Assembly: GCF_014400405.1 (NCBI RefSeq)
Contig: NZ_CP060496.1
Coordinates: forward strand, 2,294,001-2,358,000
Length of the DNA: 64,000 bases
Origin: Brachybacterium sp. Z12
GTDB taxonomy: Bacteria > Actinomycetota > Actinomycetes > Actinomycetales > Dermabacteraceae
Direction of reading: 5' to 3'
A program made the translations under genes and the position numbers. The notes below the pieces were generated by a model. The model saw only the letters and a list, made by a program, of their open reading frames with translations, ran no database searches and was not told where the DNA came from. How positions within the stretch are numbered: position 1 is the stretch's first letter; each line of letters starts with the position of its first letter. Positions 24,419 to 44,811 of this stretch are shown here, in pieces.

Positions 24419-25743
24419 TTGAAGACTGCTGTTGTCGCTCTGGGGAAGATCGGGCTGCCGCTCGCGGTGCAGTTCGCTGATGCCGGTCACGAGGTGGTCG
24501 GGGTCGATGTGAATCCCCGCCAGGTCGAGCTGATCAATGCCGCGACCGAGCCGTTCCCGGGTGAGGCGCATCTGCAGGAGAAGCTCTCCGAGCTGGTCCC
24601 CGCCGGAAAGCTGCGCGCGACCACGGACTACGCCGAGGCGATCCCCGGCGCGGACGCGGTCGTGATCGTGGTGCCGCTGTTCGTGAACGATGCGACCTGG
24701 GAGCCGGACTTCGCGTGGATGGACGCCGCGACGAGGTCCCTGGCCGAGCACCTCACCCCCGGCACCCTCGTCTCCTACGAGACGACTCTGCCGGTGGGGA
24801 CGCTGCGCACGCGTTTCGTGCCGATGATCGAGGAGATCTCGGGGCTGAAGGAATCCGTCGACTTCTTCGCCGTGTTCTCTCCCGAGCGGGTCCTGACCGG
24901 GCGTGTGTTCGAGGATCTGCGGAAGTACCCCAAGCTGATCGGTGCGATCAGCGAGGCCGGCACGCAGCGGGCCCGCGAGTTCTACGAGTCCGCGCTCCAG
25001 TTCGATGAGCGCCCGGACCTGAACAAGCCCAACGGCGTGTGGGATCTCGGCTCCCCGAAGCCAGCGAGCTGGCGAAGCTCGCCGAGACCACCTACCGCGA
25101 TGTGAACATCGGGCTCGCCAACGAGTTCGCGCTGTTCGCGCAGGACAACGGCATCGACGTGTACAAGGTGATCGAGGCGTCGAACTCGCAGCCCTACTCC
25201 CACATCCACCAGCCCGGCATCGCCGTAGGCGGTCACTGCATCCCGGTCTACCCGCGGCTGTACCTGTCCACCGATCAGCACGCCGAGACGGTCCGCACCG
25301 CCCGCACGCTGAACGCATCGGTCCCGGCGAAGCTCGTGGACCGGGCCGCGAACCTGCTCGGCTCGCTCACGGGGATGAAGGCCGTGGTGCTCGGAGCCTC
25401 GTACCGCACCGGGGTGAAGGAGACCGCATTCTCCGGCGTGTTCCCCGTCGTCGAGGCGCTGCGTGAACACGGCGCGGAGGTCGCGGTCCATGACACCTAC
25501 TACGACGATGAGGAGATCGCCGGCTTCGGCTGGGCGCCCTACCACCTCGGTGACGCGGCGGATCTCGTGATCGTCCAGACCAACCACCCCGAATACGCGC
25601 AGCTCGACAGCACCGACGTGCCCGGCGTGAAGCTGATCGTGGACGGCCGCAACATCACCACCGCCGAGAACTGGGCCGGCACTCCCCGCCTCGTCCTCGG
25701 CGACGGCTCCGCCTCCACCCACCAGTCCGCCGGCGAGGCCTGA
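24419..25743 (+). CDS. Nucleotide-sugar dehydrogenase, UDP-GlcNAc/UDP-ManNAc/UDP-Glc type (apparent frameshift)
   Basis: The enzyme (about 441 residues) oxidises C6 of a UDP-sugar to the uronic acid with two NAD+. It starts LKTAVVALGKIGLPLAVQFA (Rossmann fold), has FFAVFSPERVLTGRVFEDLR, the central ELAKLAETTYRDVNIGLANE and the catalytic cysteine in VGGHCIPVYPR. One C missing from the run 25053-25056 breaks the frame between DLGS and EASELAKL. The start is TTG at 24419 with GAGGAGG upstream. Substrate is not provable from sequence; the SPERVLTGR style and the presence of WecB- and WbpB/D/E-like genes favour a UDP-HexNAc (WbpA/WecC-like) over UDP-glucose. Confidence 0.85.
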
Positions 25744-25746
25744 CCG

Positions 25747-26169
25747 ATGGGTGAGCATGAGCTGATCCTCAGCCTGGGCCCGACCCTGGTCGGGAACCGC
25801 ACCTTCATCATCCAGCTGCTGCTGGTGGTGGGGATCGTGGTGATCGTCGGCTGGCTGTTCATGAAGCGGGGTGCCAAGCAGCTCGCGGTGCGCCGTCTGC
25901 TCATCATCGCCTTCGCGGTCTTCGCCGTCTTCACCGTGCTGTTCCCCGGTGCGCTGAGCCGGGTGGCGAACCTGGTCGGCGTGGGGCGCGGCGCTGATCT
26001 GCTGCTGTACGCGACGGTGCTGGTGCTGCTGGGATTCCTCGCGCTCCAGGAGGCCCGGACGAAGGCCGCGGAGAAGCGCACGACCTACCTCGCCCGGCGC
26101 CTGGCGATCGACGAGGCGCAGCCGCCCGCCCAGTACCGTGCCGAGGCGCTGCCCCCGCGCGACAGGTGA
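25747..26169 (+). CDS. DUF2304 family membrane protein
   Basis: This 140-residue protein has three hydrophobic segments (around residues 20-40, 48-70 and 80-100) and a charged C-terminal tail. The pattern RRLLIIAFAVFAVFTVLFPG then ANLVGVGRGADLLLYA is typical of DUF2304. Members are commonly encoded with polyprenyl-phosphate sugar synthases and may help flip or anchor the product; this is unproven. It starts three bases after the dehydrogenase stop and overlaps the DUF6541 gene, so the three are one operon. The frame is intact. Confidence 0.88.
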   Translation: MGEHELILSLGPTLVGNRTFIIQLLLVVGIVVIVGWLFMKRGAKQLAVRRLLIIAFAVFAVFTVLFPGALSRVANLVGVGRGADLLLYATVLVLLGFLALQEARTKAAEKRTTYLARRLAIDEAQPPAQYRAEALPPRDR

Positions 26170-28094
26170 CTGCGCTGATCTCCCTGCTGCTGACCATCCT
26201 CGTCGTCCTCGCCGCGGCGTACCTCCCCGGGTACGCCGCGGTGAGGGCTCGGGGCTCCCCCTTGCTCTCCCTCGCTCTCGCGCCGGCGCTGGCGGCGGCG
26301 ATCGCCGGGATCGCCGCCGTAGCGGCATCGGCCCTCGGATGGTCCTGGTCGATGCTGCCTTTCCTGGTCGGCGCGATCCTCATGGTCGGGGCCGCCCACG
26401 GCCTTAGCCGGCTCGGCGTCCGTCTGCCCTCGACGGCTCTCGACGGTGCGCTGTCCCCGCGGCGCGCCATGCCGGGGGTCCCCTGTGGATCGCCGGCGCG
26501 GTCGCGGTCTCGCTCGTGCCGATCGCCGTGCAGGCCGGGCGTCCCGATGCGGTCCTTGAACGGTGGGACACCCTCTATCACCTCTCGGCCCTGCAACGGA
26601 TACGTGAGACCGGGGACGCTTCCAGCCTGCACGTTGGCTCCGTCTCGAACTCCGTCGGCGACCCCTCCTTCTATCCGGCGGCCTTCCACGCTCTCGCGAC
26701 GACGGTCCCCGGGGTCTCTCCTGCCGTGTTGCTGAACGGCACGGTGCTGGCCCTGGCCGTGATGCCGTGGATCCTCGGCATCGCCCTGCTGGCCCGGGCT
26801 CTGTTCCCTGCCATCGGATGGGCACCGTGCGCGGCCGCCATCGTCGCGGCACTGAGCCCCGCCAGCCCGGTGAATCTCTGGATCCACCTCTCCCCCATCC
26901 CGAACCTGTCCGGGTTCGCCGCCCTACCGGGCGTCATCGCCGCGGCCGCAGCCCTCTGGGGGTCTCTCCTTCCCCGGACTGCTCTGCAGCCCTCGCTGGC
27001 GACGCTCTCCGTACTCGGGGCAGCTGGAGTAGGGCTGGGTCTCATGCACCCTAATGTCGCTGTCACCGCACTGATCCTGCTCGCCGTGCTCACGGCGGTG
27101 ACTGGGGCGGGGTCCTGGCGAACGCGACCCCGGCTGCTCATCGTGCCCGCGCTCGCCCTGCTCCCCTGTACTTCTGCTCTCCTACACGCCGCTGGGCTCA
27201 CAGGTCACCGGGTTCAGCGGCGGGCTCGAGGTCCGGTGGTGGCTGGCCCTCGGGGAGATCGGCCTGGGTCTGCTGACCGTGTGGCCCATGGCGCTCGGCG
27301 TCGTCCTGGCGGTGTTGTGGTGGCCCGGCCTCGTCACAGCCCTCCGCACCGCCCCGTGGCGCTGGCTCGGTGCTGCCTGGATCGTGGTCGCGGTGATCTA
27401 TCTCGATGCGGCCCTCGACTCCCCACTGAACCTCTCGACCCTGTACTACCGCGGCCAGGATCGTGTCGCGATGCCGCTCGCGATGCTGTCCGCCGTGCTC
27501 GTTGTGCCCGGGCTACAGGTGTGGTCCGGGGTCCTCGTCCGCTGGGGGCTCGTAGAGCGGGGCCGGCGCACCGCTCGCGCAGTGGTGGTAGCCCTCGTGG
27601 CCGCGGGGGTCCTCGCCTCGCTCTCCTCCCTCCCGTCCCGTTCCGAGAACGCTGCCAAGAACCTCGCGGCCGAGTACCCGGGTCGCGGCAGGTTCCTCCA
27701 GGCCGGCGAGCGAGCACTGTTCGAGCAGCACGTGCCACAGATGGACTCGGAAGGCACCGTGCTGGCCAGCCCGTTCTCCGGTGCTGCGCATCTGTACGCG
27801 CTGTTCGGTCAGGACGTGCGGCTGACGGTGGGCGGGATGACCTACACGGGTCTGGACCGCGACCTGATCTACGCGACCGAGGATGCCGCGACGAATCCGC
27901 GATCCTGCCAGCTCCTGGAGAAGAACGGGGTCCGGTACATCTACCAGGAGCGGCGACCCTACAATCTCCACAAGACCTCCGATTCCGTGAACTTCGCCGG
28001 TCCTGGGCTGGGCATCGTCTTGTTCGAGACGGAACATTCGCGGATGATCCAGATCGAGTGCGATCCCGGGGACGGGAGCTACGACCCGGCCTGA
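26166..28094 (+). CDS. DUF6541 family multispanning membrane protein, copy 1 (two apparent frameshifts)
   Basis: The reconstructed protein has about 640 residues, with roughly a dozen membrane helices and a C-terminal extracytoplasmic domain. The first large outside loop has ERWDTLYHLSALQRIRETGD then GDPSFYPAAFHALA, matching the second copy at 38509-40519. This resembles GT-C glycosyltransferases, where an acidic residue in the first loop is catalytic and the donor is a polyprenyl-phosphate sugar; the role is inference. Breaks lie near 26475 (missing base) and 27175 (extra T or two missing bases). The start GTG overlaps the DUF2304 stop. Confidence 0.78.
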
Positions 28095-28194
28095 AGTCCC
28101 CAGGAAGGTGCGCATCGACGTCCTCACCGGTCGCCTCGATCTGCGGTCGCCGGCCGGCCTCTCGCAGCGGGCGCCATGCGCCGCATCCGATCCT

Positions 28195-29388: not shown

Positions 29389-29403
29389 GTCCGCTCGCGG
29401 GCC

Positions 29404-30600
29404 TCAGTCCCGGCGGGCGGCACGCTCTGCGAGGCTCGCCAGCACCTGCTGGGCGCCCTTCGTCGCGCAGCCCGCGAGCGAGGCGTTCTCGAGCGTCCAG
29501 CGCCGCAGGTGCTGCGGGTCCACGCCGCCGTCGCCCGCGAGCGCCTCACGCATCGCCTCGGCAACCTGCTCGGCGTCGTAATCGCAGGCCCAGCCCAGCG
29601 CGTTGTCCCGGATCCGGTCGTGAGCGGCGCCCTCCCCGGCGTGGATCACGGGGTGCCCGTCGCCGTGGCGGCATAGATCTTGGTGGGCAGGGCGAACTCG
29701 TAGCCCTGCCCTGGTGTGATCGAGGACAGCCCGGCGACGGCCCCCGCAGATGCGCGGCGACCTGCGCCGGGGGATCTTGTCGCGGAAGTCGATGCCCTCG
29801 ATGCCTTCGGCCTGCACACGCGCCTCGAGCTCGTCGCGGCCAGAGCCCTCGGAGAAGAACAGCAGCCGCGCCTCGGGATGGGAGGCGCGGGTCCGGGCGA
29901 AGGCATCGAGGAACACGCCCGCGCCCTGCCATTCGGAGACCGTGCCCGCGTACACGAAGTAGGGGTCCTGCTCCCCGCCGGTCTCGCCCTGGTCGTGGAA
30001 CGTCTCGGTGTCGATGCCGTTGCCGACCATCACCAGGCTGGAGCGGGAGCCGATGAGCTCCTCGAGCCGATGCTGGACCCCCGGGGAGATCGTCAGCACG
30101 CGCGCGGCCCGCTTCCACACCGTCTTCTCGGCCCAGCGCACGGCGGTGCGCACGATCGTGGGCACGCCGTCGACGCTGTCGGTCGCATCGGACCAGACGT
30201 CGGCCGCATAGAAGGTGTACGGGACCCGGCGGATCGCGGCGGCGACCATCCCAACAATGCCCGTGGTGGGCGGCGGCTCGAGCACGATCGCGTCCAGCGG
30301 GCGCTGCAACAGGAGGCGCAGCGCGAGCGGGAGGTCGAAGCTCATGTAGGAGACGTACCCGCGGACCTGGCCCTGGGAGTCCCGCTTGACCGGCCACCGG
30401 GAGACCCTGTGGGCTCGTGTGCGCACGCGCCCGGCCCCGGGCGCGGTGGTGGTCAGCACGGTGACCTCTGCGCCGGCCCGCTCGAGCGCGAGAACGAGCG
30501 CCTCCTGCCGGAACGCTGCCGCGACCGGCTCCGGCGTGTAAACGCGGGTAGCGACGACGACGTGCGGCGGCCGGGTGTAGCTGCTGCGCGAACGGGCCAT
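29404..30600 (-). CDS. GT4 family glycosyltransferase, WbuB-like (about three apparent frameshifts)
   Basis: This GT-B enzyme has about 400 residues. The N-terminal domain reads VVVATRVYTPEPVAAAFRQE and VLEPPPTTGIVGMVAAAIRR, then YTFYAADVWSDATDSVDGV, as in WbuB-like GT4 enzymes. The C-terminal domain has DPYFVYAGTVSEWQGAGVFL and, across frame breaks near 29755, 29730 and 29660, FALPTKIYAATATGTPVI. Each break fits one missing base. The start ATG at 30600 overlaps the stop of the UDP-GlcNAc 2-epimerase gene. WbuB is linked to N-acetyl-fucosamine transfer in enteric O-antigens, but the donor here is unknown. Confidence 0.82.
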   Translation of the reverse strand: MARSRSSYTRPPHVVVATRVYTPEPVAAAFRQEALVLALERAGAEVTVLTTTAPGAGRVRTRAHRVSRWPVKRDSQGQVRGYVSYMSFDLPLALRLLLQRPLDAIVLEPPPTTGIVGMVAAAIRRVPYTFYAADVWSDATDSVDGVPTIVRTAVRWAEKTVWKRAARVLTISPGVQHRLEELIGSRSSLVMVGNGIDTETFHDQGETGGEQDPYFVYAGTVSEWQGAGVFLDAFARTRASHPEARLLFFSEGSGRDELEARVQAEGIEGIDFRDKIPRRRSPRICGGRRRAVLDHTRAGLRVRPAHQDLCRHGDGHPVIHAGEGAAHDRIRDNALGWACDYDAEQVAEAMREALAGDGGVDPQHLRRWTLENASLAGCATKGAQQVLASLAERAARRD

Positions 30601-31664
30601 CAGGCGCGGTCCCGCAGAGCGTCGATGCTGCGCTGGGAGGCCCTGCCGTCGCCATAGTGGGCGGGTCGGTCCGCCGTAGGGCGGGGGCGCGTCACGGAGG
30701 CGGTGAGATCGGCGGGATCGAGGATCAGTTGGTTCCAGTCGTTCTCGAGCGTCTCGACCCATTCGGTCTCGGTGCGCACGGTAGAGCAGGGTGTACCCAG
30801 GAGGTAGGACTCCTTCTGCAGACCGCCGGAGTCGGTGACGACCGCGGAGGCGTTCCGCACGGCGTTGACCAGGTCGGGGTAGGCGATGGGGGCGCCGACG
30901 TGGACGGCGCCGCCAGCCAGATCGATGCCGGCGTCCTTCGCTTTGGCGACCAGGCGGGGATGAGCGAACAGCGCAAGCGGGATCTCGAGCGCCTTGAGAG
31001 CGTCGATGATCGCGCGGAGCTTGTCGGGGTCGTCAGTGTTGTCGGCACGGTGGATGGTCGCGACGGCGAACTCGCCGAAGGGATCGATCCCCTCGGGAAG
31101 AGCGAGGGCGGTGCCCTCGACGGAGGCTGCGACGCGCAGGCAGACGTCGGTCATGACGTCTCCGGTGACCAGTGTTCGGTCCGCGAGCCCCTCGGCGGCG
31201 AGATGCCGGCGAGCCACCTCGGTAGGGGCCAGCAACAGATCCGCCGCGTGGTCGGTGATGACCCGGTTGTGCTCCTCGGGCATCCTGCGGTTGAAGGAGC
31301 GCAGGCCGGCCTCGAGATGGGCGACCTTCAGATGCATCTTCACCGCAGAGAGCGTGCCGGCGAGGGTGGAGTTGGTGTCCCCGTAGACGAGAGTCCAATC
31401 CGGCTGGTGCTCCTCGAGGACCTCGTCCATCCCGGCGAGCATGGCGCCGGTCTGGCGGCCGTGGGAGCTGGAGCCGATCGCGAGGTTCACGTCCGGTGCG
31501 GGGATCCGCAGATCGGCGAAGAAGACGTCGCTCATGGCGGCGTCGTAATGCTGTCCGGTATGGACGATGATGTGCTCGACGTCGTCACGCTGGGCGGCGG
31601 CATCGGTGATCGCGGCGAGCTTGACGAACTGCGGGCGGGCGCCCACGACGGACAGGATCTTCAT
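30600..31664 (-). CDS. wecB: UDP-N-acetylglucosamine 2-epimerase (non-hydrolysing)
   Basis: The 354-residue enzyme interconverts UDP-GlcNAc and UDP-ManNAc, or the corresponding 2,3-diacetamido uronic acids (WbpI). It has KILSVVGARPQFVKLAAI, HTGQHYDAAMSDVFF, VYGDTNSTLAG, HLEAGLRSFNRRMPEEHNR and VVTDSGGLQKESYLLGTPC, covering the conserved His, Glu and Asp sites. The start at 31664 has AGGAGG 8 bases upstream. Which substrate it takes is open: the WbpB/D/E-like trio nearby would favour a WbpI role, whereas the nearby dehydrogenase alone would favour WecB. The frame is intact. Confidence 0.9.
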   Translation of the reverse strand: MKILSVVGARPQFVKLAAITDAAAQRDDVEHIIVHTGQHYDAAMSDVFFADLRIPAPDVNLAIGSSSHGRQTGAMLAGMDEVLEEHQPDWTLVYGDTNSTLAGTLSAVKMHLKVAHLEAGLRSFNRRMPEEHNRVITDHAADLLLAPTEVARRHLAAEGLADRTLVTGDVMTDVCLRVAASVEGTALALPEGIDPFGEFAVATIHRADNTDDPDKLRAIIDALKALEIPLALFAHPRLVAKAKDAGIDLAGGAVHVGAPIAYPDLVNAVRNASAVVTDSGGLQKESYLLGTPCSTVRTETEWVETLENDWNQLILDPADLTASVTRPRPTADRPAHYGDGRASQRSIDALRDRA

Positions 31665-31839
31665 AGGTGGATCTCCTCCTCCTGAGCCCGGCGATGCTCC
31701 GAGCGGTGCCGACCAGGACGGCGGTATGGTGAGCGTGCTCCACAATAGCCAACCGCCGACGTCGGACAGTGCATCATGAGACCCGACATCATCGGCGATA
31801 GGCGCGGCCCCGCGTCTGTGCCGGACGCGAGAACGGAAT

Positions 31840-33208
31840 TTGCATGACGCCAGGCCAGAGCGCGATGGCCCCCGTGTCGCTGTACTCGTCTACAACGACG
31901 CCGCCAATGACTCCCGAGTGCTCAAGGAGTCCGCCTCCCTGCGCGACGACGGGTACGACGTGCGCATCATCGCGGTCGAACGACGCAAGCTCGATCGAGT
32001 GGCTGACGTCACACCCTCGGTGAGCGTCTCGCCTTGGAGCGGGTCCCCGAATTCGCGATCGAGCGGGTGTTGCCCAGCATCGCACCGGTGTGGCGCCGCC
32101 TCATCAACGACCCCGCGATCCCAGCGCCGGGCGATCCCGTCCCGGTGCCGCGCCCGACTCCCCGCCGCCCCCTCAGAGTGGTCCCTGCAGCGCGGTCAAT
32201 CGCGCTGAGTGCATTGCGCAGCGTCGGCGAACGAGCCTTCCGTACCATCTCGTTGGGGACCTACTGGAAGAACGCGACGACCGCCGGGGTCCGATTCAGC
32301 CCGGACATGATCCATGCCAACGATGCCAACACCCTCGTGCCCGCGCTCGCGATCCGGGCCCTGTCCCGGGGTTCCGTGGGCATCGTCTATGACTCACACG
32401 AGCTCTGGCGCCATCGCAACGTCCGATCAGGGCGGATCCTCGCCCCGTTCGCCGAGGTGCTGACCGAGTCCCTCGGGATTCGGCAGGTCGACGGCGTGAT
32501 CACCGTGTCCCCCTCGATCGCCGAATGGCTCCAGCGCACCTACCGACTCGACGATGCCCCGACGCTCGTGCGCAACGTGCCGGTCGCCGATGCCCTCCCT
32601 GACCCCTCGACAGGCGTGCTGCGTGAACGCGCCGGCCTCACCGTCGCGGACAAGGTGATCGCCTACGGAGGCCGCATCACCACCGCGCGAGGCATCGAGG
32701 AAACCATCGCGGCGCTCCCCATCTCCCGCCGAATGTCCACTTCGTGCTGCTGGGCTACGGCGAGGCGGCCGCTCTCGACGGCGTGCGCGCCGAGGCTGCG
32801 CACCACGGGGTGGAGGATCGCGTCCATCTCGTGGGTGCGGTCGAGCCCGACGACGTCTCCCGGTCACTGGCGGACGGGGACGTGGCCGTCGTGCACGTCC
32901 GTCCAATCTGCCTGTCGTACCGCTTCGCCCTGCCCAACAAGCTCTTCGAGTCCATCCGCGCCGGGCTGCCGATCGCTGCGGCAGACCTTCCCGATATGCG
33001 CCAGGTCGTCGAGGAGCTCGGGGTCGGAGAGGTCTTCCAGGGCTCCCGGCCCGAGCACCTCGCCGCGGCCCTCGCCGCGATCCTCGCGGATCCCGAGGCC
33101 TATCGGGCCCGGGCCCGCGCCGTCGCCCCGGCGCTGACCTGGGAAAACGAGACCGAGAAGCTGCTCGAAATGTATCGGCGGGTCCTCCGTCGCCGGAAGG
33201 AACGCTGA
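31840..33208 (+). CDS. GT4 family glycosyltransferase (two or three apparent frameshifts)
   Basis: The protein has about 456 residues. The first frame reads RVAVLVYNDAANDSRVLKES, typical of a group of GT4 enzymes; later pieces have HANDANTLVPALAIRALS, VYDSHELWRHRN, VDGVITVSPSIAEWL and, after the second break, YRFALPNKLFESIRAGLPIA with the donor-binding ExxxAG-like site. Breaks lie near 32020 and 32725. The start is uncertain: TTG at 31840 is in frame but has no ribosome-binding site; ATG at 31844 would need one added base nearby. It heads a plus-strand operon of three glycosyltransferases with overlapping ends. Confidence 0.8.
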
Positions 33209-34317
33209 TGCGGGTCGCCGTCGTCACCACCTGGTTTCCCACCCTCGTCGCGGCATCGCGCGGCTCCTTCGTGGTGCGCGACGCCCTGGCGATCGCCCGT
33301 CACGCCGGGGTCCGGGTCATCCACTTGGTCCCCCGGCGGACGATGACGGCAGCAGACGGCTGACCCATGCGGGGCTGGACGTGCTGCGCATCCCGATGGA
33401 TCCCCGTCGTCCCGATCAGGTCCTGCGAGCCGCCCGCGCCCTGGGGCAAGCGACTGCGGGAAGCGATCTGGTCCACTCGATGGCTTTCTCCTCGCTGCTG
33501 CCGCTGTCGATGCGCCGCCCGCGGCAGACCTGGATCCACACCGAGCACTGGTCCGCCCTGACCACGCCGGCGACACTGCCCGCGCCGGCGCGTCTCGCGC
33601 TGCCGCTGCTGTCCCGTCTGCTCGCACGCCCTGACCGGGTCACCGCCGTCTGCGACTTCCTCGCCCCGACCGATCCGTGCCGTCCGCGGATCCCGGCCGA
33701 CCGCTGTCGTGCCCTGCATCGTCGAGCCCGGAGCCGTCGTATCACGGCGGGACCGTGGCGATGGCGCTGTGCGGATGGTCTCCACCGGCGGGCTCATCCC
33801 CCGCAAGGATCCGCTGCTGGCCGTCGAGGTCCTCGCCCAGCTCGTCGAGCGCGGCGTGGACGCCCACCTGGAATGGCTTGGCGAGGGGCCGCTGCGCGAG
33901 GAGACCCTCGGACGCGCCGCGGAGCTCGGCGTCGGCGAGCGGCTCACGCTGGCGGGCACGGTGGACGGGTCCGGTGTGAGTGCGGCGCTCGCCCGCGCCG
34001 ACCTGTTCTTCGGCCCCACCCGGGCCGACAACTTCTTCGTCTCGGCCGCCGAGGCCATCGTGGCCGGGCGCCCCGTGGTGCTCGGCTCCACCGGCGGCCA
34101 GGGGGAGTATGTGCAGCCCCAGGTCGGCACACTGGTCGACGTCCAGGACGCCACCGCCTACGCCGACGCGATCCTCGAGGTCGACGCACGCACCCGCTTG
34201 CTGTCCGCGCAGGCCATCGCCGACACGATCGGCGACCGGTTCTCCACGGCCTCCGTCGGTCGCGGCTACGCCACCCAGTACGAGCTCGAGCGTCACCGGA
34301 CGGCGGATGCCCGATGA
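33208..34317 (+). CDS. GT4 family glycosyltransferase (about three apparent frameshifts)
   Basis: This enzyme of about 371 residues begins MRVAVVTTWFPTLVAASRGS, the usual opening of GT4 proteins, followed by WIHTEHWSALTTPATLP. The C-terminal domain has MVSTGGLIPRKDPLLAVEVL and DLFFGPTRADNFFVSAAEAI, which holds the GT4 donor-binding ExxxA pattern. Breaks lie near 33330, 33670 and 33710, each consistent with one missing base. The ATG at 33208 overlaps the previous stop. Sugar specificity cannot be told. Confidence 0.8.
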
Positions 34318-35416: not shown

Positions 35417-35451
35417 TCCCGCGCAGGGCGTCGCCCGGCGGATGCCAGGGC

Positions 35452-36579
35452 TCAGTCCATCGCGGCGAGGCGGGCGATGGCCCGGCTCCAGCCGCTCACC
35501 TGATGCTCCGAGGAGAGCTCCTGGGCGGCCGCATCGGAGGCCTGCTTCCAGCGGTCCACATCCTGCGGGGTCATCGAGGTCAGAGCCGTGCGCAGCGCCT
35601 CGGCGTCCGCTCCGGCGAGCACCTCCCCGATCCCGTGCCCGCGCACCAGCTCGGCCATGTCCGGTGATGGTCCCACCAGCACGGCGGTGCGGGCCTGCAC
35701 CGCTTCGAAGAGCTTGTTGGGCAGGCTGTGCTCGAGGTTGAAGGTGGTGGCGGGGAAGACCACGATCGAGACGTCGTACTCGGCGACCGTCTCCACCAGC
35801 TCCGTGTACGCCACGGGATCGCGGAAGCTCACGGCGGGGACGTCCGCCGCCCGCTGGCGCAGCGCTTCGATGTAGCCGGGCTCGCTGGGGACCAGCATGA
35901 GATCGAGCGTGAAGCCCTCCGGTGCCCCACGGAGCGCCTCGATCATCGATTCCAGGCGCCGGTTGGCCCGGGCCACCCCGGTGTGCAGGAGCCGGATCGT
36001 GCCCTGCGTCGGCCGCGGGCTGCGGTCCTCGTAGGCCGCCGCGTTCGTCACCACCTCGACGTCCACGCCGAAGCGGTCGTGGTACTCGGCGGCCAGCCCC
36101 GGCGACACCGTCGTGATCGAGGCGGCCCGGGGCAGGCAGGTGCGGCAGATCCATCGCTGGTACGGCGCGATGAACCAGCGCCAGGTGCGCAAATGCTCCT
36201 TCTCACGGGGCGCGTACTCGTGGAGGTCCGCGTGGACGCCTCGTCGCGGCGCAAGCCACAGGGCCAGCGGCAGCGTGTTGACGTCGTTGGCCAGCACGAT
36301 GTCCTTCGTCCCCACGAGGTCCGCCAGGGTCGCGCGCGCCGCCTTGACCGCGCTCATGTCCCAGTACGCCCAGCGGTGGCGGCCGGTGAGCAGATGCTTC
36401 TTGCTGCTGGGCCAGGCGCGGGTGTCCGAGGGCAACTCGATATGGGTGACGTCGGGGTGCGGCGAGGGTCCGAAGCCCGCCGTGGTGACGTCGTAATCCT
36501 GCGCGAACAGGGCGATCTGACGCTGCACCCGGGGGTCGCGCTCCAGGGTGGAGAAGCTGAAGATCAGCAGGGTGGTCAT
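35452..36579 (-). CDS. GT4 family glycosyltransferase
   Basis: This intact 375-residue GT-B enzyme starts TTLLIFSFSTLERDPRVQRQ, has VLANDVNTLPLALWLA and SITTVSPGLAAEYHDRFGVD, and the C-terminal region IRLLHTGVARANRRLESMI and EHSLPNKLFEAVQARTAVLV. These match the GT4 family related to the enzyme at 31840-33208, including the DPRV/NDSRV opening and the ALPNKLFE-type donor site, so the two are probably paralogues. It overlaps the ABC exporter stop and is the last gene of the 44.8-35.5 kb operon. Specificity is unknown. Confidence 0.87.
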   Translation of the reverse strand: MTTLLIFSFSTLERDPRVQRQIALFAQDYDVTTAGFGPSPHPDVTHIELPSDTRAWPSSKKHLLTGRHRWAYWDMSAVKAARATLADLVGTKDIVLANDVNTLPLALWLAPRRGVHADLHEYAPREKEHLRTWRWFIAPYQRWICRTCLPRAASITTVSPGLAAEYHDRFGVDVEVVTNAAAYEDRSPRPTQGTIRLLHTGVARANRRLESMIEALRGAPEGFTLDLMLVPSEPGYIEALRQRAADVPAVSFRDPVAYTELVETVAEYDVSIVVFPATTFNLEHSLPNKLFEAVQARTAVLVGPSPDMAELVRGHGIGEVLAGADAEALRTALTSMTPQDVDRWKQASDAAAQELSSEHQVSGWSRAIARLAAMD

Positions 36580-38444
36580 GCGTCCTCCTCGGTGGTCGCC
36601 TCGAGCCTGGCCCCTGCAGGGGCCTCGCGAGGAGACTCCGCACGGGCCAGGCCCGCCAGGGCGGCCTGCTCGGCGAAGGCCGGCACGGCGGCGACGACCT
36701 CGTCGAAGGAACCGGCGGCCATGACCTGCCCCTCGGACATGTAGAAGACGATGTCGCAGTACTGGATGGTGGCCAGGCGGTGCGCGATCGTGATCGTCGT
36801 GACGTCCTCGCCCAGGCCCCGGATCGCCTCCGTCACCGCGGCCTCCGTCTTGGTGTCCAGGGCGCTGGTCGCCTCGTCGAGCACGAGGACTGTGGGTTCG
36901 GCGTACATGCCGCGGGCGATGCCCATGCGCTGGCGCTGACCGCCCGAGAGGGTCATGCCGCGCTCGCCCAGCCGGCCCTGGATGCCGTCCGGCCGGCCCT
37001 CGATGACCTCGAGCATCTGGGCCCGGGAGAGTGCGCGGCGCACACGCTCCTCGTCGACCTCCTGCGGGTCCCAGGTCAGGGCGACGTTCTCGCCGACGGA
37101 CACGTCGAACAGCGCGACCTCCTGGGGCACATAGCCGACCGAGGAACGCCACTGGCGCAGCACCGTGGTCATGTCGATGTCATCGATGAGAATGCGGCCG
37201 CCGCTGGGGGTGAGCAGCCCGAGCAGCAGATCCACCAGGGTGGACTTGCCGGCGCCGGAGGTCCCCACGAAGGCGACGGAGGACCCGGCCGGGATACGCA
37301 GGGAGACGGCGTCGACGGCCGGCTCCTCGCGGCCCGGGTAGGTGAAGGTGACGTCCTCCAGGACGATGTCGTGCAGGCCGCGGTCGAGGCTCCCGGTGTC
37401 GGGGCGTTCAGTGCGCTCGACCGCCTCCCGGGCGAACTCGATGTCGTCGATGATGTAGTCGGCGAAGGCGGCGTTGGTGAGAATCCGGTTCTGGGTGGAC
37501 TGGAAACGGGTCAGCGAGGGGACCAGGCGGAATCCGGCCACGGCGAAGAGAGCCACGGAGGTCATCGCGGTCGCCGGGGCGTTGTCGGGCAGCCCGGACA
37601 GGTAGCCGACGCCGCCCACCACGACGAACCCGCCGACCATGCCGGCATCCAGGACGAAGCGGGGCATCTGGTTGTAGTACTGGGCGAAGGCGCGGGTGCG
37701 GGAGGCGCTGGAACGTCGCCCGGCGACGATTTCGGCGACCTCGACCTCGTTGCCCTTCAGCGTGAGCTCCTTGAGCGCGGCGAGCACCTCGCCCAGGAGG
37801 CTGACCACACGGATCGAGTTGTCACGGTTCGCGGCGCCGTTGCTGACCGCCCTCGGCGTGATCACACGGGAGAGGATCAGGGCGATCGCGCCGAGGTACG
37901 CGAAGGTCGCCAGGGCGATCTTCCAGTCCAGGATGAACAGGCCCACGCTGATCACAGAGATCGTCGCGAACTCCGCGACCACGGTCATCGACGGCATCAG
38001 CACGTTCGCGACCACGGCGGCGACGCCGGAATCGACCATGCGAATGATCTCCTGGGTCGACTTCGAGGTGCGGTCCACCCATGAAGCCGACATATAGGAG
38101 CGGAAGAGGGTCTGACCGATCGCTACCTCATGCTGCGCGAAGCGCTGGGTGGCGATCCTGATCGTCAACAGGTTCAGGAAGCTCTTGACGATGATCAGTC
38201 CCACGAAGGTGGCGACGAGGATCATCATCTCCTCGAAGGTCTCCAGGCGCCAGCCGACCACCGGGATCGTCACGGCCGTCCCCGGGCTCATGAGCGCCGG
38301 GATCACCAAGGCGATCGCGCCGAGCGCCACCACGTCCAGGAGTGCGAGGATGCTCATGACTGCGGCGAAGCCCATCAGGAATCGACGAGACTCCGGAGGC
38401 AGGACCGACAGGGTCCGTCGGACGATCCTGATCGTCTGCTTCAC
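36576..38444 (-). CDS. ABC transporter, fused permease and ATPase (PglK-like flippase candidate)
   Basis: This 622-residue half-transporter has an N-terminal six-helix exporter domain and a C-terminal ATPase domain. Motifs are Walker A VGTSGAGKSTLVDLL, Q-loop VGYVPQEVALFD, signature MTLSGGQRQRMGIARGM, Walker B VLVLDEATSALD and H-loop TITIAHRLATI. Length and layout match MsbA/PglK-type type IV ABC exporters. The setting among glycosyltransferases and the absence of a Wzx suggest it flips a lipid-linked oligosaccharide, as PglK does; this is inference. The start is GTG at 38444 with GAGGAG upstream. The frame is intact. Confidence 0.88.
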   Translation of the reverse strand: MKQTIRIVRRTLSVLPPESRRFLMGFAAVMSILALLDVVALGAIALVIPALMSPGTAVTIPVVGWRLETFEEMMILVATFVGLIIVKSFLNLLTIRIATQRFAQHEVAIGQTLFRSYMSASWVDRTSKSTQEIIRMVDSGVAAVVANVLMPSMTVVAEFATISVISVGLFILDWKIALATFAYLGAIALILSRVITPRAVSNGAANRDNSIRVVSLLGEVLAALKELTLKGNEVEVAEIVAGRRSSASRTRAFAQYYNQMPRFVLDAGMVGGFVVVGGVGYLSGLPDNAPATAMTSVALFAVAGFRLVPSLTRFQSTQNRILTNAAFADYIIDDIEFAREAVERTERPDTGSLDRGLHDIVLEDVTFTYPGREEPAVDAVSLRIPAGSSVAFVGTSGAGKSTLVDLLLGLLTPSGGRILIDDIDMTTVLRQWRSSVGYVPQEVALFDVSVGENVALTWDPQEVDEERVRRALSRAQMLEVIEGRPDGIQGRLGERGMTLSGGQRQRMGIARGMYAEPTVLVLDEATSALDTKTEAAVTEAIRGLGEDVTTITIAHRLATIQYCDIVFYMSEGQVMAAGSFDEVVAAVPAFAEQAALAGLARAESPREAPAGARLEATTEEDA

Positions 38445-38508
38445 GTGGGTAACTCCTCAGAGGTCGGGGCCGTGCGGGAAGACTGGCCCGGTTCCGGACC
38501 GCGCGCTG

Positions 38509-40519
38509 TCAGCACGTCGAGTCCAGCTCGTACAGAGCGTACGGGCCCTCAGCCGCGACCTGGGTCAGCCGGGGCTCAGGAATGTCATGGACCCCACGCC
38601 AGCGCTCCGAGTCGCGGGGGTTGATCCGCTGTCCGGACTCCTCGGAGAGGTCGCGGTACAGGTGCGTGGCACCCACGGAGTCCAGCGCCCGGCACAGCTC
38701 CTCGGAGGCCTCCGGGGTGCCTGCCCGGTACGCGTAGTGGGCGACGAGGGTCTTCTCGCGCGTCAGCGGGCGCGACATCGTCGGGTAGACGGTCTCCACC
38801 CGGCCGAGGGACCAGTACAGGGTCGCCCCATCCAGCGGATCAGCGAGGACGACCGCGTCCGCGGGCAGTTCCGCCGCGGTGCGTTCGATGAAGGCGCGCT
38901 CGGCCGCAGGGACGTACGGCGTCAGCTGCACGCCGTAGGCGGTGTACGCGAGCGATCCCAGCAGGGGTAGCCGCGGCGGCGCCACGAGCGCGACCAGCAC
39001 GGTCAGGACGAGCGCGCAGACGCCGAGCGCAGCGGGCAGGATCCGGCGACGCCGTGCACCGCTCTCGATCACCGTGAGGAGCCCCGGGCCATGAGCAGCA
39101 CCAGCATGCACATCATCAGCGGGGCGATGCGCTCGCGGGCCCCGTACCAGGGGTTCACCAGGGCCACGGCGAGGGGATGGTCGATCTGGGTGGCGATCCC
39201 CAGCGCGACCGAGGCAATCGCCGCGAGGGCCGCAGTCTGCCCCAGCACCTCGCGGTGGCGGAACGCCGCGACGGCGCCGATCCCCGCCAGCACCCAGATC
39301 GCGGCCATCGGCCACACCAGCGCCGGCACCGCGGGGATCCTCGGAGAGTCCAGCACGATCTGCCCGATCACCGAGGCCAGACCGTCAGCGCTGGGCTTCG
39401 TGAGGTGCATCCCGCTCAACAGGACCCGCGAGAGCACGACGAACAGAAGCGCGGCGGTGACCGCGGCACCGATCTCGAGCCCTCCCCGCAGACGGCGGCC
39501 GCTGCGCATCTGGTCGACCCCGCCGACCAGAACCCGCAGCCCGGCCACGACCGCCACGGAGAACAGGACGGAGGGGTGCGCCAGAGCGGTCCCGAGGACG
39601 ATCAGCACCAGACCGGCCGCCCGCCAGGGTCCGGGGGCCCCGTGGCGCCGCTCCATCAGCATCAGCACCGCCCCTATCGCCAGGGGCAGGCAGACCACGC
39701 CGAGCACGATCGGCCACAGCCCCATCACCAGCGCCATCGCCGCGGTGCTGAGGAACAGCGTGCTCGCGGCGGCGCTGAGCGCCACGAGCAACGGTGCGAA
39801 CGGGGGGAGGGCCGCACGAGCGCGGCGACCATCGCCGCCACCGACGAGGGAACCGCGGCGAGCATCGCGAGCACCATCGCGTTGGCCGCCGTGATCACGT
39901 CAAAGGGCAGTATCGCCACCAATGTGTCGAACACGACGGGATAGAAGGTCGGCTCGCCGTAGATGTCCGTGAGCGCTGTCGTGAGGAAGGCATCTCCACG
40001 TTGACGGATAAAGGCGACCGCGGAGAGGTGGAAGAAGGAGTCGAAGCTCCCGTTCAGCGTCCCGATCCCGCCCATGCGCCGGGACGCAGAGGCCACCAGC
40101 ACGGCTCCGCTCAGGAGCGATGCCGCGGTGACCAGGACGGAGTCACGTCGGGACCAGGCCAGCGGCACTACAGCAGCTGCGGCATCACCGGATGCCGAAG
40201 AGCTGCTTCCGTCGGCGTCGGTCGCCGTACTTCTCGTGGCGGGCCCGGGGGATGTCCGCAGAGCGGCCCGGGACGCCCCCGCACGGCGTACGGCGCCTGC
40301 TAGGACGAGCAGCAGGAGGACGCCGAAGAGGACGTTCAACAGACTCCAAGGGATGCCGAGCAGCCGGTAGAAGGCGCCGAGCGCCGCGCTCAGCAGCACG
40401 GTGACCACGGGGGCCCAGCCCCAGCGGACGCGGAGACGGGCACCGAGCATGCACAACATCAGATAGCCGGGGACGCCGAGCAGGACGACGGCGCACAGCA
40501 CAGGAAGGATCGAGCTCAT
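38509..40519 (-). CDS. DUF6541 family multispanning membrane protein, copy 2 (two apparent frameshifts)
   Basis: The protein has about 670 residues, with many membrane helices and a C-terminal outside domain. The loop GSFDSFFHLSAVAFIRQRGD then GEPTFYPVVFDTLVAIL lines up with WDTLYHLSALQRIRETGD and DPSFYPAAFHALA of copy 1, so the two are paralogues. The ends also match in style (VLADPLDGATLYWSLG and VLASPFSGAAHLYALF). Breaks occur at the G run 39803-39808 and near 39075, each one missing base. A GT-C glycosyltransferase role is plausible but unproven. It starts 8 bases after the upstream GT4 stop. Confidence 0.78.
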
Positions 40520-40526
40520 GCGAATA

Positions 40527-42004
40527 TCACGCGCAGTCGTCGCGTAGGACTCGCTCGTACCCCTCGAGGACCACAGTGGGGTCGCGGTGCGCCAGGGCGA
40601 ACTCACGCGCTGCGGCGGACTCCTCGCGGTACCGCTGCGGGTCTGCGAGCTCCAGAACACGGTGGACAGCGGCGTCGATATCCGGCACCACCCAGTCCGA
40701 TCGATAGAGCGTGGCCGGCCCCCGTAGTCCGCCGTGTCCGGCCAGTCACGGATCACGGCCGGGCAACCTACAACGAGCGCCTCCATGAGGGATTCATGGG
40801 TTCCCTCGTGGCGGGACGAAGAGAGGATCACGCCCGATTCCGCCAGGAGTGCGGGCACGTCATCACGCACCCCCGTTTGCTCGACGGCCCCTGCCGGCAG
40901 CTGTCCCAGCTCAGCACGCACCCGCTGCTGGTAGGGCGTGTCCCGCGCGCTGTCCGCCGGCAGCTGCGGACCGACGAGCCTCAGGTGATAGCGCTCGTCA
41001 TGCTCCCGCAACCGGGTCAGCACCTCGAGGCTGAACAGGACATCCTTGACCTCGCGGATCCACCCGATCTGCACCAGACGATGCTGATCGTGGGTGTCCC
41101 GTCCAACCTGGTCGACACCACGGGACAGGAGGTTCCCCACCTGGGACGAGGCCACGTCCTCATATCCGGGGACCATCGTGGTGAGCATTGTCCACACCGG
41201 TGGCGAGACGTAGAGCATCCGGTCGATCCGACGGTGGTCGTGCAGCAGTACGAACGGGGTGAACGCCTCAAACCGGTGGATCCTCGCGATCAGTCGGCGA
41301 GGCGCCCGGTCCAGCAGCGTCATCCAAGTCAGGACGTGGTGGCTCCATTCGACGAGGACGACGTCCGCCCAATCGAAGGCGTCCACGAGCTCGGGGGCGT
41401 GGGCATACGCCGTCCCGACGTCACGAGGTCATACCGGCCTCGGATGATCCGCTCGCGATCCGGGAACCCGCCGTCGGCGAGGCCGTCGACCTCGATCGTC
41501 CGCACCTCGTAGCGGCCGGTCCCATCCAGCGCCCCGATGAGCGGCCGAACGAACGTCCAGTTCTCCTGGGCCACGACCACCAGGCGCACAGGGTCCCCGT
41601 CGTCCCGGGGTCGAAGCTCCGGACGTCGCGGATCCGAACCCTCCGGGATCCCTCGTTCCAGTAGGAGGGAGCCCAGCGCGGACTCCCGCAGCGGGCTCAG
41701 AAAGCTCGACGGGTCCGCGGCCAGCGGCGAGCCCCCGTCTGATGGAGCGACGGATCGTAGCTGATGCGCAGGGCCTTGTCGTACCAGCGCAGCGCTGAGG
41801 CGACCTTCCCGCTCCGGAAGCGCCGGTCAGCGCGCCGCAGCAGGGCAGCGACGTCCTCACGCCATCCGGCGTAGCTAGGGTCCTCTGCGAGCCGGTGTTG
41901 AGCGGAAAAGTACACGCCCATCCCCCGACGGCGCCCGGTAGGAACCGCGCAGCCCGAGAGGCGGCCCGGACCGCACGGTCACGGAGCCCAGCAAGATCAC
42001 TCAC
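40527..42004 (-). CDS. GT4-like glycosyltransferase with N-terminal extension (about four apparent frameshifts)
   Basis: The pieces give a protein of about 490 residues. An N-terminal extension reads GVYFSAQHRLAEDPSYAGWR and KVASALRWYDKALRISYDPS. The GT-B part starts RLVVVAQENWTFVRPLIGAL, with DAFDWADVVLVEWSHHVLTW, VQIGWIREVKDVLFSLEVL and SRHEGTHESLMEALVVGCPA at the donor-binding site. Breaks near 41915, 41710, 41400 and 40725 are each in the missing-base direction. The start is GTG at 42004, overlapping the oxidoreductase stop by 8 bases. The SSSRHEGTHES site is typical of GT4, but the sugar is unknown. Confidence 0.75.
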
Positions 42005-43024
42005 CTGGTGCGATCCCCTTCAGAGTCACGACCTGATTCTCGCGGGCGCTCTGCAGCACGGCTTCGACGGTGCGGACGGTGTGCAATCCCTCACGCATGG
42101 TGACGATGTTCGAGGAGTCCCCGTTCACCGCATCACGGAAGGCCTGGTGCTCGGTGGCCAGCGGCTCCTGGCGCTGCAGTGCGTAGGTGATCGAGTCACC
42201 CTCGCTGACACCGCGGAACGAGGCCATCGATTCCCACAGATTGGTCGCCGCATCAGCATTCGCGTGGAAGGTGAGGTCGGCGTTGAGGGTGTCGCCCACC
42301 AGCGCGCCCTTCTCCCCGGTGACCACGGTGACCCGCTCCTTGAACGGCGTCAGCCAGTTCACCAGGTGGTTGGTGATGGTGCCGTCCTCGAGCCGGCCCG
42401 CCACCGAGACCATGTCCTCGTCCTCGCGGCCGCTGCGGCGGGTCGAGGTCGCTGCGACGCTCGCGTACGGCGACTGCGCCACCCACGCCGTCAGATCCAG
42501 GTCATGGGTCGCGAGATCCTTCACGACCCCGACATCCGCGATCCGTGCCGGGAACCCGCCCTGGCGGCGGGTGACGATCTGGTAGATCTCCCCAGCTGTC
42601 CGTCGGCGATGCGCTTGCGCATCTCCTGCAGCGCGGGGTTGTACCGCTCGATGTAGCCGACCGCGCCGACCAGCCCGGCCTTCTCGTACGCGGCGGTGAT
42701 CTCCTCGGCCTCGCCGATGTCGAAGGCGAGCGGCTTCTCGACCAGGGTGTGCACCCCGGCCTCCGCCAGCGCGATCGCCACATCCCGGTGGAACTGGGTG
42801 GGGACCGCGACCACCGCGTAGTCGATGCCCGCCGCGATCAGCGCCTCCACATCGGGCAGCACCTCAAGCCCCGGTGCCGCTCCGTGAGGGTCGCCGTGCG
42901 CGTCTGCGACCGCGACCAGGTCCACGCCCTCGAGCGCGCGGAGGTTGCGGGCATGGTGACGTCCCATCATGCCCAGACCGATCAGTCCGGCCCGCAGTGT
43001 CTTCTTCTTGCCCAGCATGCTCAT
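41997..43024 (-). CDS. Gfo/Idh/MocA oxidoreductase, UDP-GlcNAc(A) 3-dehydrogenase-like (apparent frameshift)
   Basis: The enzyme of about 343 residues has the nucleotide-binding start RAGLIGLGMMGRHHARNLRA, EKPLAFDIGEAEEIT with the conserved EKP, GYIERYNPALQEM and, after the break, KDLATHDLDLTAWVA. The ERYNPA segment resembles UDP-GlcNAc 3-dehydrogenases, and the gene lies directly after an aminotransferase and a hexapeptide acetyltransferase, as in wbpB/wlbA sets. It would oxidise C3 of UDP-GlcNAcA. One missing base in the CCCC run 42590-42593 breaks the frame. The ATG at 43024 overlaps the aminotransferase stop. Confidence 0.78.
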
Positions 43025-44129
43025 GCCCCTGCCTTCGCCACCGTGTTCACGGCCGCCACGATGCGCTCGCGGTCCAGCTCCGTGATGCTCGGATGCACCG
43101 GCAGCGACAGCACCTCACGCGCCAGCATCTCCGTCACCGGCAGATCCACCTCGGTACGGAACGTCTCCAGGCGGTGCACCGGGGTCGGGTAGTACACCCC
43201 GCAGCCCACCTGATGCTCCTCCCGCAGCGCGGTCGCGAAGGCATCCCGCTCCGACGCCGTCGCGCCCTCGATCCGGACCGTGTACTGGTGATAGACGTGC
43301 GAGGCACCCTCACGCACCACCGGCGTCACCACACCCTGCAGATTCGCATCGAAGAACGCCGCGTTCTCCTGCCGCGTCGCCGTCCAGGCCGGGAGCTTGC
43401 CCAGCTGGACCCGGCCGATCGCGGCATGGATGTCGGTCATGCGGTTGTTGAAGCCGGCGACCTCGTTCGCGTACTGCTTCTCCATCCCCTGGTTCCGCAG
43501 CAGCCGCACCTGACGCGCCGTCTCGGCCGTGGCGCACGAGACCATGCCACCCTCGCCCGAGGTCATGTTCTTCGTCGGATACAGCGAATACATCGCCCCA
43601 TCACCGAAGGTTCCCACCTGAGCGCCCTGCCACGTCGCACCATGCGCCTGCGCCGCGTCCTCGAACACCCACAGCCCGTGCTTCTTCGCAATCGCGAGCA
43701 GCTGATCCATCGGCGCCGGATGCCCGTACAGGTGCACCGGCTGGATCCCCACCGTCCGCTCCGTGATCGCAGCCTCGACCGCCGCGGGATCTACCGTGAA
43801 CGTCTCGGGATCCACATCGACGAACACCGGGACACCGCCCGAGACCGCCACCGTGTTCGCGGTCGCCGCGAACGTGAACGACGGCACGATCACCTCATCA
43901 CCCGGCTTCAGACCCAGCGCCAGCATCCCCAGATGCTGACCCGAGGTCCCCGAGTTCACGGCCACCACTTCACGGCCACCTGCCAGCGCCGCGGAGAACT
44001 CCTGCTCGAACGCCGCCACCTCCGGCCCCTGCGCCACCATGCCCGAGGCCAGCACGCGATCCACTGCGTCCCGCTCCTCCTGGCCGATGATCGGCTTGGC
44101 CGGGGGATCATCGTGAGTTCGCTGTTCAT
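43021..44129 (-). CDS. DegT/DnrJ/EryC1 aminotransferase, WbpE-like (apparent frameshift at start)
   Basis: This PLP-dependent sugar aminotransferase of about 369 residues has AVNSGTSGQHLGMLALGLKP, VIVPSFTFAATANTVAVSG, EDAAQAHGATWQGAQVGTFG and the PLP lysine in SLYPTKNMTSGEGG. The C-terminal VGCGVYYPTPVHRLETF is also typical. Together with its neighbours it would aminate C3 of the 3-keto uronic acid. The true start is MNSELTMIP at 44129, out of frame by one missing base in the run 44102-44106. Uncorrected, the frame runs back into the acetyltransferase and looks like a fusion, which I reject. Confidence 0.87.
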
Positions 44130-44811
44130 GCGGAAGGTCCATCCTGTCCATCGGGATCGGTGAGGGTGGCCGGGCGCGGTGCGTCGGCCAATGGTGAGGA
44201 GGCGAGCAGCAGTCCGCCGGTGGAGTCGTCGGGGATGTACCACTCACCGGTGAGGGGGCACACCCAGGAGTCGGTGCCGTCGGAGGCGGGGACGAGCTTC
44301 TCCCCGAGCGTCCCACCCAGCCCAAGCGCTTGGCTGGCACTCCGGCCACCAGAGCGTGCGGGGGGACGTCCTTGACCACGGTGGCGCCGGCGGCGACCAT
44401 CGCCCAGGCCCCGATCGTGACCGGGGCGACACAGACGGCGCGGGCACCGATCGAGGCGCCGGTCTCGCAGGTCACGCCTACGGGCGCCCAGTCGGAAGCG
44501 GACTTCGGAGTGAGGTCGGGGTTGACCGCACGCGGGAAATGGTCGTTGGTGAACACAGCTGCTGGGCCGACGAAGACCCCGTCGGCGAGCTTCGCGGGCT
44601 CATACACCAGCGCGTAGTTCTGCACCTTGCAGCCGTTGCCCAGCTGCACGCCGGAGCCGATGTAGGCGCCACGTCCGATCACGCAATCGGTGCCGAGCCG
44701 TGCGCCTTCGCGCACCTGGGCGAGATGCCAGACGGAGCTGCCGTCACCGATGGTCGCGTCGTCCGAGATGTCGGCCCCCGGGGCGACCCGGTAGGCAGGG
44801 GTATTGCTCAT
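44126..44811 (-). CDS. Hexapeptide-repeat N-acetyltransferase, WbpD/WlbB-like (apparent frameshift)
   Basis: The protein (about 229 residues) has left-handed beta-helix repeats: ATIGDGSSVWHLAQVREGAR, GRGAYIGSGVQLGNGCKVQN, YALVYEPAKLADGVFVGPAA and FTNDHFPRAVNPDL. The VFVGP...VFTND segment is characteristic of WbpD/WlbB, which acetylate the 3-amino group of UDP-GlcNAc3NA. One missing base near 44300 shifts to a frame that continues LVPASDGTDSWVCPLTGEWY and ends GQDGPSA, overlapping the aminotransferase start. It is the first gene of the operon running to 35452. Confidence 0.82.

Follow-up and report, generated by a model that had tools for sequence, protein, structure and literature searches.

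The teichuronic acid of Micrococcus luteus, an anionic polymer of an actinobacterial wall, is built of N-acetylmannosaminuronic acid (ManNAcA) and glucose, and its uronic acid bears a single acetamido group. A doubly substituted relative, 2,3-diacetamido-2,3-dideoxy-mannuronic acid (ManNAc3NAcA), is associated with the WbpABDEI enzymes of Pseudomonas aeruginosa and the Wlb enzymes of Bordetella, and it is already established as a component of actinobacterial walls. For Streptomyces griseus, nuclear magnetic resonance of the wall polymer gave the repeat ->3)GalNAc-alpha(1->4)-ManNAc3NAcA-beta(1->, and the genes utrD, utrA, utrB, utrJ and utrH of the teichuronic acid cluster utrA-J were assigned by prediction to the five steps that make the sugar (PMC13274773). 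According to the same source, S. antibioticus is without utrE, utrF and utrH and has a polymer with the gluco form, GlcNAc3NAcA, which fits the view that the epimerase acts as the switch to the manno form. The matrix and wall polysaccharide of Cutibacterium acnes has two ManNAc3NAcA residues per repeat (PMC6598116). Here, we examine a 64,000-nucleotide stretch ("the window") of the genome of Brachybacterium sp. Z12 (G000; a single contig of 3.51 Mb, scored 85.7% complete) in which five genes resemble these systems, and we conclude from their sequences, with a probability of about 0.8, that together they make UDP-ManNAc3NAcA. This conclusion is drawn because of the residue signature of the epimerase, the co-occurrence of the genes across genomes and their linked neighborhoods.

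An earlier note on this DNA had proposed that the five enzyme classes of the Wbp/Wlb route are present, and profile searches of the window's proteins confirmed all five at the positions in Table 1. The S. griseus utr cluster, which serves an anionic wall polymer, has the same five classes; in Brachybacterium, however, the 6-dehydrogenase (6DH), the epimerase and a trio of acetyltransferase, DegT aminotransferase and 3-dehydrogenase (3DH) are scattered across 20 kb between other glycosyltransferases. Orthologs of all five, with 59-64% identity, occur in S. halstedii (locus L192), our stand-in for S. griseus, and there the genes run aminotransferase, oxidase, gap, 6DH, just as utrA, B, C and D are lettered in S. 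griseus. C. namnetense and C. porci, the stand-ins for C. acnes, have orthologs of the epimerase, 6DH and 3DH. The comparison with Wbp/Wlb is a divided one: the enzyme classes, the predicted product, the epimerase type and the WlbB-type acetyltransferase are alike, but the Brachybacterium 3DH comes from another Gfo/Idh clade, the genes do not form one operon and the order of the steps is perhaps reversed. Thus, of the route proposed earlier, the classes, the epimerase type and the acetyltransferase family stand and the WbpB-like 3DH does not. The same five classes are found as one contiguous run on an archaeal plasmid, pHG2 of Haloferax gibbonsii. The overlap of the last three minus-strand genes, also described earlier, holds good: DegT and 3DH share 4 bases in the window, and the 4-base overlap of acetyltransferase and DegT, masked here by a frameshift, is seen in the intact ortholog of Brachybacterium G002. 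Scans of the window for tRNA genes and Rfam families found nothing.

Table 1. Genes of the polysaccharide locus and its neighborhood (window coordinates)
Feature	Coordinates	Strand	Evidence or remark
NDP-sugar 6-dehydrogenase (6DH; UDP-GlcNAc/ManNAc dehydrogenase group)	24419..25743	+	two frames in assembly
UDP-GlcNAc3NAcA 2-epimerase, predicted WbpI/UtrH type	30600..31664	-	Epimerase_2; solved-structure matches and residue signature
Gfo/Idh/MocA 3-dehydrogenase (3DH), not WbpB	41997..43024	-	two frames in assembly
DegT/DnrJ/EryC1 3-aminotransferase	43021..44129	-	PF01041, 396 bits
Left-handed beta-helix N-acetyltransferase, WlbB/WbpD type	44126..44811	-	hexapeptide repeats
LytR-CpsA-Psr (LCP) glycopolymer-peptidoglycan transferase	22188..23489	+	PF03816, 143 bits; TIGR00350 over cut-off
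ABC exporter, PglK/MsbA-like, candidate flippase	36576..38444	-	NCBIfam PglK at 260 bits and MsbA at 250, neither over cut-off
Open reading frame with GT4 glycosyltransferase; as such overlaps epimerase 3' end	29404..30762	-	PF13579, PF13439
GT4 glycosyltransferase in two frames	32034..33208	+	PF13439 on 32034-33137; second frame 32744-33208
Open reading frame with GT4 piece running into DUF6541 membrane protein piece	39725..41386	-	PF13692, PF20176
UDP-galactopyranose mutase (Glf)	18813..20087	-	TIGR00031, 338.8 bits, over cut-off

The identity of the product depends above all on the epimerase. Its top five matches among solved structures, at 344-347 bits, are all sequence variants of one UDP-GlcNAc3NAcA 2-epimerase (best match 8sxv, 346.7 bits); 4neq (229 bits), 4hwg (162) and 7ya2 (159) come next, followed by a group at about 115 bits that includes 1f6d (114.7). 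We take 4neq to be the Methanocaldococcus jannaschii epimerase and 1f6d to be Escherichia coli WecB. In the active site, the T. thermophilus enzyme has Trp307, Tyr96 and Ala18 where UDP-GlcNAc epimerases have Arg, His/Gln and Leu/Met (PMC10622841), and in the alignment the window epimerase has Trp and Tyr at the first two positions; the WecB-type residues, Arg at the one and His or Gln at the other, are absent from it. Trp occupies position 307 in 134 of 139 aligned rows (matches covering >75% of the query, from proteins of <470 residues, some genomes being represented twice). The remaining five rows have Arg and are lower-scoring epimerases of a second type, with Gln or His at position 96; two of them come from Brachybacterium. 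A reading in which the locus holds WecB and WecC functions only was rejected on the Trp/Tyr pair.

A broader form of that reading would have the locus make two products, UDP-ManNAcA from the epimerase and 6DH (WecB/WecC, as in M. luteus), while the trio would separately supply neutral UDP-GlcNAc3NAc. The epimerase does pass the NCBIfam wecB model (244 bits, over the cut-off), the nearest model for the 6DH is that of the archaeal UDP-ManNAc dehydrogenase, and the trio can stand alone. Nonetheless, we consider this very improbable: the epimerase has the Trp307/Tyr96 signature whereas Arg and Gln stand at these positions in the second-type Brachybacterium epimerases, its own genome encodes a separate epimerase only 31% identical to it, and the 3DH is present in every one of the 48 class-wide genomes that have the epimerase. 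The M. luteus polymer, which the earlier note had offered as a relevant precedent, is likewise anionic, belongs to an actinobacterial wall and contains an acetamido uronic acid, but it is the wrong precedent, for its synthesis is expected to require a UDP-GlcNAc 2-epimerase, and the residues at issue are those of a UDP-GlcNAc3NAcA enzyme.

The genes of the set occur together. Genome-wide counts cover the epimerase, DegT, 3DH and 6DH, the acetyltransferase having been followed in loci only. Among 58 genomes, our own included, DegT was found in 41, 3DH in the same 41, 6DH in 40 and the epimerase in 38, with none of the four in 16 (lists hand-picked by score, weaker paralog matches being left out, and DegT of G049 and the epimerase of G001 being counted from partial matches). 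Within Brachybacterium the four are together in 27 of the 36 genomes (own included; B. subflavum and B. phenoliresistens among them), which bears out the co-occurrence that the earlier note had suggested looking for; five genomes (G013, G021, G026, G032 and G034) have none and four a partial set, three of the latter being fragmented or incomplete assemblies. In the fourth, G031, an assembly of 20 contigs scored 99% complete, the absence of the epimerase seems genuine. Across 374 genomes of the Actinomycetes, in each of which scoring was confined to the top 4 or 5 candidates, so that misses are possible, the epimerase is present in 48 (25 of 133 genera), 3DH in 72 and 6DH in 66, while 302 have neither of the two dehydrogenases. 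All 48 epimerase genomes have 3DH and 47 also have 6DH, so that the three genes are together in 47/374; all 66 genomes with 6DH have 3DH. Fisher's test gives p <1e-40 for each of the three gene pairs, with kinship uncorrected. These counts rule out a chance co-location of the genes. Nineteen of the 374 genomes have 3DH and 6DH and no epimerase; by analogy with S. antibioticus they are predicted to make GlcNAc3NAcA and not ManNAc3NAcA.

Linkage points the same way. The epimerase served as the entry point to a survey of 80 named loci, with as much as 10 kb read on either side (contig-end losses being scored as misses and partial matches over the score limit as present). All four partners lie within the flanks in 43, and in each of the 53 loci where DegT and 3DH both exceed the score limits the two are direct neighbors on one strand. 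A phylum-wide epimerase search at E 1e-70, which served only for finding G247 and other loci, gave matches in 62 of 396 genomes, the majority with 39-50% identity. The order 3DH, epimerase, 6DH is kept in 25 of the 26 genomes that have all of them on one contig, with match starts spaced by 10.0-13.1 kb and then 4.2-6.2 kb. In G008 (locus L134, 7876-12600), 6DH, DegT and 3DH are present a second time, next to a 2-epimerase of the UDP-GlcNAc type with the Arg/Gln residues.

Several observations weigh against this assignment. The third substitution, Ala18, is missing from the window epimerase, which has Leu; yet Leu stands there in 103 of the 139 rows, those of S. halstedii, C. namnetense and C. 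porci included, and since Streptomyces and Cutibacterium share it the substrate is not excluded by it. The Trp/Tyr pair also occurs in plasmid epimerases of Halobaculum and Methanosarcina, near which no gene of the trio is annotated within the roughly 8 kb shown (5.8 kb upstream for Methanosarcina), and a Priestia plasmid epimerase with the pair adjoins DegT and a sugar dehydrogenase with no Gfo/Idh gene annotated in the surroundings shown. Of the 80 surveyed loci, 23 have no 3DH in the flank. Sixteen of these were searched genome-wide at E 1e-25 and 14 have 3DH elsewhere, the epimerase genomes of Leucobacter celer and Nocardioides phosphati being without it at that threshold; among the other seven, three Brachybacterium genomes (G009, G015 and G017) do have 3DH. 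In L. celer (L228, 6438-8770) a distant Gfo/Idh gene, 26% identical, adjoins the 6DH where the usual 3DH ortholog is missing, possibly a replacement of one enzyme by another. Neither dehydrogenase attains an NCBIfam equivalog cut-off, and four of the five pathway genes are frameshifted in this assembly.

The frameshifts deserve closer attention, for if they were real the pathway would be decayed and no sugar would be produced. All four intervals other than that of the epimerase have lengths not divisible by three: 6DH and 3DH are each split into two open reading frames in different frames, the acetyltransferase and aminotransferase are read as one false frame of 622 residues, and the epimerase is the sole clean reading frame of the five. 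Compared with the sibling contig L129, each of the four genes shows one single-base difference in length (in the aminotransferase, near the 5' end) and the epimerase none; nucleotide identity is 95-99% across the trio and 6DH and 88% in the epimerase, the final 49 bases of the 3DH interval lying outside the alignment. L129 comes from the near sibling G003, whose assembly is fragmented (81% complete, with 5% contamination), and it might be a chimera; G002, however, has all five orthologs uninterrupted from end to end, and its proteins, as found, were used wherever a comparison needs whole proteins. Judged by these single-base differences and the open G002 orthologs, the breaks look like assembly errors. 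Genes resembling purK, a sensor kinase and a biotin carboxylase (44911-48141 and 55713-57493) also look two-frame by eye, which fits an assembly of low accuracy. Decay, with four frameshifted genes in its favor, is thus highly improbable given that each gene differs by a single base in length from a sibling whose identity across those four is 95-99%, that housekeeping genes look split elsewhere in the window (seen by eye, not checked one by one) and that the one-contig genome nonetheless scores just 85.7% complete.

The enzyme that departs from the described route is the 3DH, whose two domains are PF01408 (42521-43024) and PF02894 (41997-42524). Its best NCBIfam model is NF040723, a UDP-GlcNAc 3-dehydrogenase, at 200 bits against a cut-off of 450. 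In Deinococcus and Sulfitobacter, clusters with this kind of epimerase include a genuine WbpB: the Deinococcus protein matches solved WbpB at 426 and 346 bits (346 to 3oa2) and is 59% identical to that of Sulfitobacter, yet the Brachybacterium 3DH aligns with it at 23% identity over just 74 residues. The WbpB structures 3oa2 and 3o9z are not among the best 60 of 65 matches of the intact 3DH ortholog, and 3q2k, presumably WlbA of B. pertussis, matches it weakly (60 bits). In a tree of 55 rows, 42 actinobacterial 3DHs, among them those of Streptomyces (S. halstedii falls in one clade with Brachybacterium) and Cutibacterium, form one group with support of 98/78; the nearest row from outside the actinobacteria is the Gfo/Idh protein of H. 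gibbonsii (34% identity), on a branch which, like those of some paralogs, is so long that its placement is unsure. Structure matches, alignment and tree rule out a WbpB ortholog, and by its sequence the 3DH is assigned to another clade, nearest the archaeal UDP-GlcNAc 3-dehydrogenase. No usable characterization of that archaeal enzyme or of GnnA/GnnB was found among the literature matches listed. The earlier note had held that a 6DH grouping with UDP-glucose enzymes and a 3DH grouping with unrelated Gfo/Idh/MocA proteins would tell against its proposal; half of this is what we find, the 3DH lying outside WbpB, and the other evidence outweighs it, leaving joint action of the set toward UDP-ManNAc3NAcA, as first proposed, very likely.

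This placement bears on the order of the steps. We propose that the 3DH would first oxidize C3 of UDP-GlcNAc, the DegT enzyme would aminate it and the hexapeptide enzyme would N-acetylate the amine to give UDP-GlcNAc3NAc; the 6DH may then oxidize C6 to give UDP-GlcNAc3NAcA, and the epimerase would invert C2 to yield UDP-ManNAc3NAcA. Such an order, the reverse of that of Wbp, has somewhat better than even chances; it is preferred because the 3DH is nearest NF040723 and not WbpB, and because two genomes have the trio without a 6DH. Six of the 72 genomes with 3DH have no 6DH ortholog, their best other dehydrogenases being 30-38% identical, and in the two of these six whose surroundings were read, G559 (100% complete) and G767 (99%), the full trio is present, so that the C3 reactions probably need no prior oxidation of C6. 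The point on the other side is that a distant dehydrogenase (36-37%) in both could stand in for the 6DH. The G559 trio (L304, 9036-17316) lies about 3 kb from FlgK and a gene with a flagellin domain, and perhaps supplies UDP-GlcNAc3NAc for flagellin glycosylation.

The same product could also be reached in the Wbp order, with C6 oxidized first and C3 of UDP-GlcNAcA next, the second enzyme being a WbpB analogue that belongs to a different clade. A P. aeruginosa-like pathway was proposed for S. griseus (PMC13274773), 6DH accompanies 3DH in 66 of the 72 genomes that have the latter, and the two genes adjoin in Haloferax and in G662; the nearest named family of the 3DH and the trio standing without a 6DH ortholog in two nearly or fully complete genomes argue the other way. 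We regard the Wbp order as a serious possibility at a little under even odds, and the C3-first order as slightly ahead of it. Tentatively, and with less than even confidence, the observations may be joined as follows: actinobacteria and haloarchaea would share a second ManNAc3NAcA route, in which C3 is oxidized, aminated and acetylated on UDP-GlcNAc and C6 is then oxidized on UDP-GlcNAc3NAc, the trio being a portable module that also works without a 6DH (as near the flagellar genes of G559) and that, with a 6DH and no epimerase, ends at GlcNAc3NAcA.

The 6DH has the N-terminal domain PF03721 on 24419-25105 and the central and C-terminal domains PF00984 and PF03720 (UDPG_MGDP_dh family) on 25039-25743, and its second piece holds the motif GGHCIPV, the Cys of which is presumably catalytic. 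It passes only the subfamily model TIGR03026, its best equivalog, NF040825 (archaeal UDP-ManNAc dehydrogenase), remaining below cut-off, and a TviB-type enzyme of Sulfitobacter is 31% identical to it. None of the four intact non-epimerase proteins passes an NCBIfam equivalog model. The solved relatives of the aminotransferase are 7b0d (280 bits), perosamine synthetase (241) and WbpE (205), and the intact G002 acetyltransferase belongs to the WbpD/WlbB family, with 3mqg, which we take to be WlbB, as its best solved relative (145 bits, the next being at 76.5).

Once made, UDP-ManNAc3NAcA would be the donor for an anionic wall polysaccharide of the teichuronic type, which the glycosyltransferases and exporter of the locus may build and its LCP enzyme, one gene away from the 6DH and the likely ligase for a wall polymer, may attach. 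That the sugar enters a wall-linked polymer is quite probable, judging from the LCP gene and the precedents. It is unlikely, though conceivable, that it feeds a loose exopolysaccharide, a capsule or a glycoprotein instead: the C. acnes polymer is also the chief polysaccharide of the biofilm matrix, and no family of wall-teichoic-acid assembly was found among the ten locus proteins scanned, which was the only search for one, but the S. griseus and C. acnes polymers were recovered from cell walls and the ligase gene lies close by. Set against a wall-linked ManNAc3NAcA are the sugars reported for Brachybacterium: galactose and glucose in the wall of B. faecium (PMC3035206), and ribose, glucose and galactose by whole-cell thin-layer chromatography in two other species, with no uronic or amino reference sugar spotted (PMC6090031). 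The accessible part of PMC10581053 describes no wall polysaccharide, and no report of ManNAc3NAcA or teichuronic acid in Brachybacterium was apparent among the open-literature matches as listed, one of which, PMC7767326, names both the genus and teichuronic acid. The C. acnes wall polysaccharide combines ManNAc3NAcA with the galactose and glucose that were also reported for B. faecium, and a Brachybacterium polymer of Gal/Glc plus ManNAc3NAcA is predicted.

The genes between the epimerase and the trio are far less conserved. This cassette, at about 31.7-42.0 kb, has no nucleotide match in G003, G002, G012 or G008, nor in the stretch of B. phenoliresistens that was compared; of its ten 1-kb segments from 32001 to 41001, however, nine match B. 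sp. YJGR34 and eight match B. subflavum, with 67-84% identity. The pattern looks like a serotype-like exchange in which the genes for polymer assembly are swapped and the flanking precursor genes are conserved, and a swapping of glycosyltransferases is likewise described for the Streptomyces loci (PMC13274773). Two large membrane proteins are broken in the locus (26166-28198 and 38509-41386), the second matching DUF6541 and the first similar to it by eye. Beside the locus, at 15128-20087, a piece of an ABC transporter ATPase, an ABC-2 permease, a GlfT2-domain transferase and Glf make up a separate system of galactan type (galactofuranan-like).

The presence of such a sugar in an actinobacterial wall, which the earlier note had thought would be notable in itself, is not new; since ManNAc3NAcA is known from the walls of S. 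griseus (PMC13274773) and C. acnes (PMC6598116), Brachybacterium is a new, predicted member of this group and not the first. The sugar is of biological consequence: a wall polymer that contains it is a receptor for the umbrella toxins of Streptomyces (PMC13274773), and another is the chief matrix polysaccharide of C. acnes biofilms (PMC6598116). A test based on the epimerase indicates that the capacity to make it is widespread and predicts from sequence which genomes should yield ManNAc3NAcA and which GlcNAc3NAcA. Should C3 indeed be oxidized first, the route that is now described by analogy with Wbp would need to be redrawn.

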